NCBI GenBank assembly: GCA_902826635.1
Contig: CADEFQ010000003.1
Span: 16,198-80,197, forward strand
Reading direction: 5' to 3'
DNA: 64,000 nt
Origin: an uncultured Pseudomonadota bacterium
GTDB lineage: Bacteria; Pseudomonadota; Gammaproteobacteria; Steroidobacterales; Steroidobacteraceae
Shown here in pieces: positions 3,043 to 64,000 of this stretch. How positions within the stretch are numbered: position 1 is the first letter of the stretch; each line of letters opens with the position of its first letter. The notes below the pieces were generated by a model that did no database searches, was not told where the DNA came from, and saw nothing but the letters and a program-made list of their open reading frames with translations. Made by a program: the position numbers and the translations under genes.

Positions 3043-5088
3043 GTGACACTCGCGACGGCCCTCGCGTTTCTGGCCGGTGCGCTGCTGGCGTTGGCGCAGC
3101 CGCCACCGTATGGCCCGTGCGCGGCGCTCGCCGTGCTCGTTGTCGCCGGAGCCGCGCTCTTTGCATGGAGTCGTGGCTGCCCGCGCTCGCTCGCGCTCGC
3201 CATCGCGCTTGGCGTCGGGCTCGCCTGGACGTCCATGCACGTGGCGGCCGCCGTGGCAGCCCGCTGGCCGGCGGCGCGCGACGGCGAACGGCTGCTCGTC
3301 GTCGCGCGCGTCCTCACGATCCCGGTCGACGGTGAGTTCGGTACCACGTTCGATGCGGCGCTCGAATTCGATCCGCGCGCCGGCGCACGTCGGCTCGAGG
3401 CGCGGCTCGTCTGGTCGAATGCACGGCCTGCACCTGAGGTGGGCGAACTCTGGCGTCTCGCCGTGCGGCTGCGCGCGCCGCGCGCCGCCGCCAATCCCGC
3501 GGGTCCCGACATGGAGCGCGTCTGGTTCCGCGAGGGGCTCGGCGCCCTCGGCACGGTGCTCGCACGGACGCGACTCAATGAGCGACTCGGATCGGGCGCG
3601 GCGCCGCTCGATCGCCTGCGGGCCCGCATCGCGAAGCGGATTGCCGCGGTGGTGCCGGACCGGGATGCCGCGGCGCTGCTCACGGCGTTGGCGGTCGGCG
3701 TGACGGGTGACCTGTCGCGCGAGCAATGGCGCGTGTTCAACGCCACCGGCACGACGCACCTCGTCGCGATATCCGGCCTGCACGTCACACTCTTCGCCGT
3801 GCTCGCGATCGGGGGCGCCCGGCGCCTGTGGCGCATCGTCGGGCCACTGCGCGAGTGGTGGCCCCGAGAAGGCTTCGCGGCGGTCCTGGGCGTGACCGCG
3901 GCGCTCGGGTATGCGCTCCTCGCCGGCTTTTCGGTACCGACGCAGCGCACCCTCGTGATGTTGACCGCCTGGCTGCTGGCGCGACAGGCGGCGCGCGCCC
4001 ACGGTGCGCTTCATGCCTTTGCGGTCGCGATCGTCGTCGTGATCGTCCTCGACCCGTTCGCGCCGCTCGCGAGCGGCTTCTGGCTGTCGTTCGGCGCGGT
4101 CGCGGCGATCGTGCTCGCATCCGGCACGCGGATCGGACGCGCGCACTGGCTGCACGAGGCGACGCGAGTGCAGCTGGCCGTATCGATTGCGCTCATTCCG
4201 GTGACCCTCGCGGCCTTCGGCGGTCTGTCGCTCGCGGGCCTCGTCGTGAACGCGGCCGCAATCCCGGTGTTCACCTGCGTCCTCGTGCCGCTGACACTCG
4301 CTTCGACTGCGGCGCTCGCCTTCGCGCCGTCGCTGGCCGATGCCGGCTTCACAGCGGGCGGTTGGCTCCACGCGCTGCTTTGGCCAAGCCTCGAGTCCGC
4401 CGCATCGTGGCCGCATGCGCTCGTGATGCTCGCGCCGCCCGCGTGGGTCTATCTCGTCGTCGTCCCTGCAGTCGCCATCGCGGTGCTGCCTTGGCCGCGT
4501 GGCCTGCGCGTGACCGCGGCGGCCGCGGTCGTGCCTCTCGCGGCCGCCACGCCGGGCTTGCCACCGTCGCAAGTCACCCTCACCGTGTTCGACGTGGGGC
4601 GAGGGGAGGCCATCGTGATTCGCACCGCGCAGGCCGTGGTCGTCTACGGGACAGGCGACAGCTTCGGCACGGCCGGTCGGCGCATGGCGCGCGTCGTGGT
4701 CCCGTGGCTGCGCACGCAGCAGGTCGCGCGGGTCGATCGACTCGTGATGCCCCGTCTGCGCGGTGATCACGCGGCCGGCGCCGCCGAGCTCGTCGCAGCC
4801 TTGCCGGTCGACGAGATCCTCGTGCCACGCCCGTGGTCCGGCGGGCCGGGGAATGCCGTGCTTTGTGCCGAGCGTGCCGCCTGGTCATTTCCGCCGGTAC
4901 GTTTCTCGGTGACCGCGGACTGCGAGATGGTGCTCTCGATCGGCGGGCGGCGCGTGTTCGGCCGTGGGGCGCGCTTCGACACCGCACGGGATGGCGCCAT
5001 CAGCCTCACGGTCGATGCCGCAACGGGTGCCTCGCACCGGTGGGCGGCCCGCGACGGTTATCCATGGCCGTGGCGCGCTCCGGTATGA
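3043..5088 (+). CDS. comEC: ComEC/Rec2-family DNA uptake channel with degenerate C-terminal domain
   Basis: ComEC family: an inner-membrane channel that passes single-stranded DNA into the cytoplasm during natural transformation. The 681-residue protein has an N-terminal soluble (DUF4131-like) part at about 1-190, then the competence domain (about 200-500) with many membrane helices and the signature GTTHLVAISGLHV near residue 235. The last 170 residues correspond to the metallo-beta-lactamase-like domain but are shorter and altered: the usual DTG is GTG, and the HxDxDH metal motif reads RLRGDH (about 571-576). Start is GTG at 3043. The family call is secure; nuclease function of the last domain is doubtful. 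Confidence 0.9.
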   Translation: MTLATALAFLAGALLALAQPPPYGPCAALAVLVVAGAALFAWSRGCPRSLALAIALGVGLAWTSMHVAAAVAARWPAARDGERLLVVARVLTIPVDGEFGTTFDAALEFDPRAGARRLEARLVWSNARPAPEVGELWRLAVRLRAPRAAANPAGPDMERVWFREGLGALGTVLARTRLNERLGSGAAPLDRLRARIAKRIAAVVPDRDAAALLTALAVGVTGDLSREQWRVFNATGTTHLVAISGLHVTLFAVLAIGGARRLWRIVGPLREWWPREGFAAVLGVTAALGYALLAGFSVPTQRTLVMLTAWLLARQAARAHGALHAFAVAIVVVIVLDPFAPLASGFWLSFGAVAAIVLASGTRIGRAHWLHEATRVQLAVSIALIPVTLAAFGGLSLAGLVVNAAAIPVFTCVLVPLTLASTAALAFAPSLADAGFTAGGWLHALLWPSLESAASWPHALVMLAPPAWVYLVVVPAVAIAVLPWPRGLRVTAAAAVVPLAAATPGLPPSQVTLTVFDVGRGEAIVIRTAQAVVVYGTGDSFGTAGRRMARVVVPWLRTQQVARVDRLVMPRLRGDHAAGAAELVAALPVDEILVPRPWSGGPGNAVLCAERAAWSFPPVRFSVTADCEMVLSIGGRRVFGRGARFDTARDGAISLTVDAATGASHRWAARDGYPWPWRAPV

Positions 5089-63060: not shown

Positions 63061-63091
63061 AAAAAAAAACGCCGCGCAAAGCGCGGCGTTT
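63061..63091 (-). terminator. Rho-independent terminator of the lipoprotein gene
   Basis: AAACGCCGCGC-AAA-GCGCGGCGTTT (63067-63091), an 11-bp perfect stem; on the minus strand it is followed by a run of nine T (63069-63061). Strong intrinsic terminator 21 bases after the gene's stop. Confidence 0.95.
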
Positions 63092-63112
63092 GGGGTCGAG
63101 CGAAGTAAGTGA

Positions 63113-63424
63113 TTACTTCGAGATCGAACGCTTGAACATGCGGTCGATCTTCTCGTTGGTCGCGTCACAGCACGACTGGCTGGCCTGCGCAGCGGCAAGC
63201 GCCTGGTTCGCGGTGCTCTGCGCGCCGCTCGCCGTCGAAGAGGCCGACTGGGCAGCCGAAGAGGCCGCATCCGCCGCACTCTTGGCAGCCGCGGCGTCCG
63301 ACGAGAGCCGTCCGACCTGCGCCTTCAGGTCATCAACCTGCGCCTGCAACGGCTTGAGATCCGTGCAGCCCGCAAGCATGACAACAGCGGCCACTGCCGC
63401 AACTTTAACGATCGCGCTCTTCAT
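63113..63424 (-). CDS. OprI/Lpp-like alanine-zipper outer-membrane lipoprotein
   Basis: 103-residue small lipoprotein: signal peptide with lipobox LAGC (Cys20), then a continuous helix of heptads rich in Ala/Ser (alanine zipper, about 28-80) and a terminal lysine (RSISK) like the residue that is joined to peptidoglycan in Lpp. Adjacent cysteines Cys88-Cys89 (QSCCD) are unusual. ATG at 63424 has AAGGGGA five bases ahead; an ATG at 63439 is less likely. Probably tethers outer membrane to murein and is highly expressed, given its strong terminator. Confidence 0.88.
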   Translation of the reverse strand: MKSAIVKVAAVAAVVMLAGCTDLKPLQAQVDDLKAQVGRLSSDAAAAKSAADAASSAAQSASSTASGAQSTANQALAAAQASQSCCDATNEKIDRMFKRSISK

Positions 63425-63579
63425 AGAAGTCCCCTTCATGTGGATACAGAAACCTGCGCCGGCCGAACGTTAGCACAATGCGTTATGTACGGCGGCCAAG
63501 CGACGCAACTGCAACAAATCCCGCCGCGGATTGCAAGAATTTCGATCCTACAAAAGTGTCGGTGATATCCGACACAGGA

Positions 63580-63719
63580 GCGAACAGCGAACGGCATGCA
63601 GCCAGTAGCGGGACGTGAGCGGCGATCCAGCTATCTGCTATCAGTCATTCGCTATCCGCTGTTAGAGACCGCCCGATCTGGCACGACGCCCCTCTGGCTG
63701 CACGCCGTTCGCTGTTCGC
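63580..63719. repeat. MITE-like element with 26-bp inverted ends
   Basis: Left arm 63580-63605 and right arm 63694-63719 are inverted copies with 25 of 26 bases paired, the outer 16 being perfect. Inside lies a five-unit array of 7-base units near GCTATCN (63630-63664), and the arms also step in sevens (GCGAACA, GCGAACG). No open frame. Mobility or RNA function is inferred. Confidence 0.7.
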
Positions 63720-63739
63720 CGCGCGCTCTCCAATTTCCC

Positions 63740-63767
63740 TTGCGCGGCGCCGGATTCTGGATAAAAT
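63740..63767 (+). promoter_or_regulatory. lexA promoter
   Basis: TTGCGC (63740-63745), 16 bases, TAAAAT (63762-63767). Start near 63774, at the left edge of the LexA box, so LexA binding would block transcription. Confidence 0.65.
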
Positions 63768-63773
63768 CACAGC

Positions 63774-63789
63774 CTGTACAGACATACAG
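63774..63789 (+). promoter_or_regulatory. LexA (SOS) box
   Basis: CTGTACAGACATACAG: exact CTGT-N8-ACAG operator as in E. coli-type SOS genes. Overlaps the predicted start of lexA transcription; implies autoregulation. Confidence 0.92.
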
Positions 63790-63815: not shown

Positions 63816-64000
63816 ATGTCAGACCTCACGCCCCGCCAGACCGAGATCCTCCGTCTCATCCAGCGCACCATGGCTGAAACCGGCATGCCGCCCACCCGTG
63901 CGGAGATCGCCGCCGAGCTTGGTTTTCGCTCCGCCAATGCCGCCGAAGAGCATCTGCGCGCACTTGCCCGCAAAGGGGTGATCGCGCTGATCCCCGGCAC
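63816..64000 (+). CDS. lexA: SOS repressor LexA, N-terminal part
   Basis: First 61 codons of LexA, cut by the window end. Start [16 protein letters not shown] and winged-helix DNA-binding segment [20 protein letters not shown] (24-43) then [14 protein letters not shown] match LexA of gammaproteobacteria. Preceded by its own SOS box. The protease domain lies outside the window. Confidence 0.96.

Follow-up and report, generated by a model that had tools for sequence, protein, structure and literature searches.

The inverted repeat upstream of lexA in this Steroidobacteraceae-like gammaproteobacterial MAG is probably one copy of a non-coding, non-autonomous palindromic repeat that is dispersed in the genomes of a few related species and sits at lexA as a passenger. 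Members of the family carry arms of tandem degenerate heptamers, either (AGCGAAC)n or (AGCTNAG)n, that end inward in AGCCAGA; a variable spacer of 15-100 nt follows, and then TCTGGCT and the complementary heptamers. The initial annotation had suggested a search for further copies in the genome and its relatives and for empty sites. Instead of a single copy conserved at the same site in distant relatives with no empty sites, we find dozens of copies, in a few species only, and orthologous sites that lack the repeat (at lexA, in the gap after imuB and at C20 site 1). This combination indicates that the dispersed palindromic repeat reading is the right one.

The repeat in the lpp/lexA gap

In the window, the 64-kb stretch of DNA analysed here, the repeat upstream of lexA is the sole copy of its family, and it is recovered by a covariance model (R1) trained on 28 copies with this one left out (Table 1). 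Of the 26 positions of its arms (63580-63605 and 63694-63719), 25 pair, confirming the one-mismatch 26-bp arms described in the initial annotation, and complementarity is 84% when the arms are extended to 38 nt. An open-reading-frame check found no convincing gene inside 63580-63719, in line with the earlier reading of the element as non-coding, and its location between the lipoprotein gene and the lexA promoter stands as well: it occupies a divergent gap, with the minus-strand lipoprotein gene on one side and lexA, preceded by its promoter-like hexamers and SOS box, on the other. Folded as a single strand, the repeat reaches -93.7 kcal/mol, against -61.7 +/- 4.0 for shuffled sequences (z = -8.05). 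An Rfam search of the repeat returned nothing near gathering score; its miRNA-precursor matches were rejected as hairpin artefacts.

Table 1. Features of the repeat and its surroundings (window positions)
Feature	Position	Strand	Details and basis
Left arm	63579..63606	+	AGCGAAC-AGCGAAC-GGCATGC, then inner core heptamer AGCCAGT; sequence, arm match, family alignment
Spacer, 86 nt	63607..63692	none	Long compared with other copies (15-100, mostly 15-30)
Degenerate heptamer run within spacer	63629..63665	+	AGCTATC TGCTATC AGTCATT CGCTATC CGCTGTT AG; direct sequence reading
Right arm	63693..63727	+	Inner core TCTGGCT, then GCACGCC-GTTCGCT-GTTCGCC-GCGCGCT; sequence, arm match, covariance model
Whole element per covariance model R1	63571..63727	-	45.1 bits, E = 9e-10
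Lpp/OprI-family alanine-zipper lipoprotein gene, divergent neighbour	63113..63439	-	ORF and domain searches
Probable lexA core promoter	63740..63767	+	TTGCGC 63740-63745, 16 nt, TAAAAT 63762-63767; by eye
SOS/LexA box	63774..63789	+	CTGTACAGACATACAG (CTGT-N8-ACAG); sequence; kept in congeners
Start of lexA (TIGR00498)	63816..63998	+	Complete gene beyond window = L001:1757-2371

The order of these features bears directly on what the repeat could do for lexA. Both the SOS box and the probable promoter, whose hexamers were assigned by eye while a consensus scan listed none, come after the repeat in the direction of lexA. The main lexA transcript should therefore leave the stem out. The repeat probably lies outside the lpp transcript as well. 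The idea that the transcript would fold into one long stem thus holds for the strand, which folds strongly, but not for the main lexA message, and we reject an RNA element of the lexA mRNA on the same ground. An intrinsic terminator, a stem followed by a T run, also failed our test: a consensus scan listed no T-tract terminator at the element, and its two minus-strand candidates fall outside it. The SOS box and probable promoter are largely kept in congeners with an intact repeat, in those where it has decayed and in those that lack it. A role in lexA control, proposed earlier as insulation or modulation, is therefore not supported; most likely the repeat does nothing in particular in the divergent lpp/lexA gap and is simply carried there as a passenger.

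Two further features of this region are recorded in their own right. A dyad, TGTCGG-N6-CCGACA (63557-63574), lies directly upstream of the repeat, is largely kept in all congeners, and is a possible operator in the lpp/lexA gap. At the 3' end of lpp, a strong hairpin, rich in GC and accompanied by an A/T-rich run (63062-63092), which gave weak sRNA-family matches in Rfam, is probably the lpp terminator.

A heptamer-armed repeat family

A BLAST comparison of the element with its own genome turns up partial matches at dozens of places; almost all are to the arms, and they often form inverted pairs 40-180 bp apart. Pairing between the two arms of one element reaches 83.5% of cells, versus 74.1% for shuffled arms, an excess that mostly reflects the separation of two heptamer types. 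Taken alone, C-type copies show a modest excess (28.2 versus 26.7 of 35) and G-type copies none, their arms being without covariation; we therefore do not accept covariation as proof of a selected RNA. Drift from a common consensus, together with some hairpin-templated correction, would fit this pattern better than strict selection on an RNA stem.

The pattern AGCCAGA-N(2-32)-TCTGGCT occurs 12 times in this MAG (G000), 23 times in G004, six times in G001, three times in G005 and zero or one time in the other congeners, and only sporadically outside the genus; a reversed control gives 0 in both G000 and G004. A scan for the exact arm pattern over the genome contigs gave no match. Model R1 matches on both strands number 51 in G000, 55 in G001, at least 114 in G004, 31 in G003, 14 in G005, 5 in G002 and 0 in G006. 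Copies are about half of these both-strand matches, which corresponds to roughly 25 in this MAG, about 28 in G001, at least 57 in G004 and few or none in two congeners, the counts for the richest genomes being lower bounds. All genomes compared are draft MAGs, and the relatives, judged by the nearest lexA records, are Steroidobacteraceae-like gammaproteobacteria.

Across 396 genomes of the order, the arm pattern matches the genus and elsewhere only single background places. The restriction to one genus that this would imply was rejected once the covariance model found a second genus of the family, with some 6-20 copies per species in three species (G229, G280 and G233). There the AGCCAGA core is unchanged and the heptamers are AGCNRYG, AGGCKAC or AGTCCGC; arms in G229 often terminate in AAGAGGC or AAGAAGC (loci L338-L349 cover the three species). 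A search of the class (369 genomes) adds just two that pass R1, with heptamer arrays that lack the AGCCAGA core, and searches of plasmids and viral contigs for the repeat gave no match. Plain heptamer arrays of many sequences are present in 60 of the 369 class genomes, and the reversed control pattern matches too, so that a seven-base period alone is not diagnostic; we rejected this generic survey, which mostly finds heptamer microsatellites, as a marker of the family. A few scattered arrays in the class are also inverted, with unrelated units. In G526, from another gammaproteobacterial family, a long (AGGAGCC)n run is followed by (AGCTTCT)n (L350; 207 generic heptamer matches in that genome), and a small, distant gammaproteobacterial genome, G458, holds inverted (AGCNNTC)n arms without the AGCCAGA core (L351).

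Copies tend to lie where genes end. In a sample of 41 copies from G000 and G004, with genes called by a home-made, approximate codon scorer, the neighbouring genes mostly run in tandem or converge, and a gene's 3' end lies within 25 bp of the start of 32 of the 38 assignable copies. Divergent gaps hold one or two of 36 copies, versus 37% of intergenic bases in the window, a depletion that is weaker when counted per gap and not per base (p about 0.02-0.06). The copy upstream of lexA is a clear exception to placement at gene 3' ends, and its divergent gap is atypical for the family.

Orthologous sites are found filled, decayed and empty. At lexA, the repeat is intact in G000 and, with the other heptamer type, in G004; it is degenerate in G001, reduced to left-arm remnants in G003 and G005, and not recognisable in G002 or G006. 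The gap between imuB and the next gene holds a complete copy in G004 and none in G000, G001, G003, G005 or G006. C20 site 1 is filled in G004 and in G000, where the copy runs into the start of a lipoprotein-like gene, and empty in G001, G002, G005 and G006. The filled and empty pairs at these last two sites show no visible target-site duplication, their flanks having diverged.

Several observations on assembly and neighbouring insertions accompany these comparisons. One gene pair occurs twice in G000 (L002 on contig C71, L020 at the start of contig C3), with diverged repeat copies, reflecting either a strain mixture or a duplication. Contigs of G003 break within the repeat upstream of lexA (L092, end of C87; L091, start of C128), and several G000 contigs likewise terminate near repeat copies. 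In the next gap downstream of imuB, G003 carries another insertion of about 240 nt (L232; gap aligned to L234 at about 4280-4345) whose inverted ends, GACACCTGCGC...GCGCAGGTGTC, look MITE-like.

Downstream of lexA, one copy lies at the imuA/imuB junction and another within imuB, a gene named here for its IMS family match and its place after lexA. The ImuB frame is open across two repeat-derived stretches in six congeners, encoding peptides such as ASSEQREANGEQRTANSQKALAVASGSQLSALSSKL; G006 has only a short linker there. The spacing of conserved anchors in imuB is divisible by three in every genome compared (6 of 6 and 5 of 5), which is not so at two neighbouring gaps. The AGCGAAC unit is stop-free in all six frames (SEQRTAN / VRCSLFA), a property that would help its tolerance in proteins.

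Proposed origin and spread of the copies

We infer that copies of this repeat have moved. They may spread by a trans-acting or replication-linked route and be retained where they do little harm, at gene 3' ends, in operon gaps and in protein linkers; slippage would let heptamer number and sequence drift, while hairpin-templated correction would keep the two arms roughly matched. Against this explanation, neither mobility machinery nor a target-site duplication was identified, and the lexA site carries two heptamer types, one in G000 and the other in G004, a pattern that could point to a preferred site or to selection. More tentatively, and with rather less confidence than in the passenger reading itself, we suggest that these repeats could form a distinct class of heptad-armed palindromes in Steroidobacteraceae-like bacteria. 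From one genus to the other, the seven-nucleotide register and the AGCCAGA/TCTGGCT core persist while the heptamer is replaced (AGCGAAC, AGCTNAG, AGCNRYG, AGGCKAC, AGTCCGC), which would imply a dedicated process that copies the core, rewrites the arms and seeds in-frame linkers such as those of ImuB.

The initial annotation proposed a MITE or REP-like element, and this holds loosely, in that the element is a dispersed palindromic repeat. In a classical MITE, an insertion sequence with an internal deletion is mobilised in trans by a DDE transposase through recognition of the terminal repeats; this is an unlikely account of the element. The repeats are short, non-coding and multi-copy, have inverted terminal repeats, and differ in presence and absence between congeners. 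Their termini, however, are variable heptamers: the runs at the ends vary in number and sequence, the conserved part is the inner core, and membership in this class is not established where diverged flanks leave no target duplication visible.

We consider it similarly improbable that nothing moves at all, and that the family is only apparent, with heptamer microsatellites arising site by site through slippage and template switching. The occurrence of heptamer arrays in the class, where the reversed control pattern is found too, would suit such local origins, as would the inverted arrays with unrelated units and the change of heptamer type at one site between congeners. Against them stand the AGCCAGA core and unit type common to dozens of unlinked copies per genome, the recurrence of that core in a second genus, and the clean absence of the repeat at orthologous sites.

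A selected cis function at lexA, with the repeat insulating the divergent lpp and lexA promoters from each other or acting as a roadblock between them, is very unlikely: the hairpin is strong and lies in a divergent gap, and at least two species have an element here, but the repeat is degenerate or unrecognisable in five of six congeners while the SOS box and promoter are kept, it lacks a T-tract terminator, and its divergent location is atypical for the family. Least probable, and already largely refuted, is a REP/BIME-type element moved by a RAYT (Y1) transposase: the repeats are extragenic palindromes in many copies at gene 3' ends, but the RAYT domain (Y1_Tnp, PF01797) has no match in any of seven genus genomes while present in five control genomes, and the arm alignment contains only heptamers and AGCCAGA, with no GTAG/CGTC-type tag at the palindrome end.

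Relation to known repeats

The dispersed, passenger repeat that we favour shares features with several described families. Rickettsia palindromic elements (RPE; Ogata et al. 2000, as described in PMC2229807 and PMC10969869) are palindromes of about 100-150 bp, confined to one lineage, that lie between genes and also in frame in protein genes. The present repeats are likewise palindromic, about 100-150 bp long, intergenic and lineage-specific, with in-frame copies in ImuB, a likeness in features. Unlike RPE, they have arms built from degenerate heptamers in tandem, flanking an AGCCAGA core, their host is a Steroidobacteraceae-like gammaproteobacterium, and the copies examined mostly lie between genes, at gene 3' ends. 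They resemble REP, BIME and REPIN sequences with their RAYTs (PMC2817692, PMC3733652, PMC3116915) as dispersed extragenic palindromes next to genes, and differ in their heptamer arms and in the missing tag and Y1 transposase noted above. Bacterial MITEs such as Correia/NEMIS, ERIC and RUP (PMC2229807) are also short, non-autonomous inverted repeats, some of them in reading frames, whereas here terminal repeats are not fixed and no TA or other target duplication is visible in the diverged flanks. Intergenic seven-base units are known from the TAACTGA repeats of Beggiatoaceae (PMC4679880) and the heptamer repeats of Xanthomonas and Nostoc (PMC4692102); those are direct tandem repeats of one heptamer, whereas here the units are degenerate and make up a pair of inverted arms that share a conserved core.

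The heptad-armed family is apparently undescribed: the literature searched, with subscription papers outside its coverage, yielded RPEs and heptamer direct repeats and no description of such a family. For lexA itself the finding is an ordinary one, that of a passenger repeat. For the lineage, the family adds a specific palindromic repeat with arms that evolve by steps of seven bases, and extends RPE-like in-frame occurrence in protein genes outside the Rickettsiales. With a core kept between genera and heptamers that change, it also makes the copying of a repeat without a visible transposase a process that can be tested in close strains.
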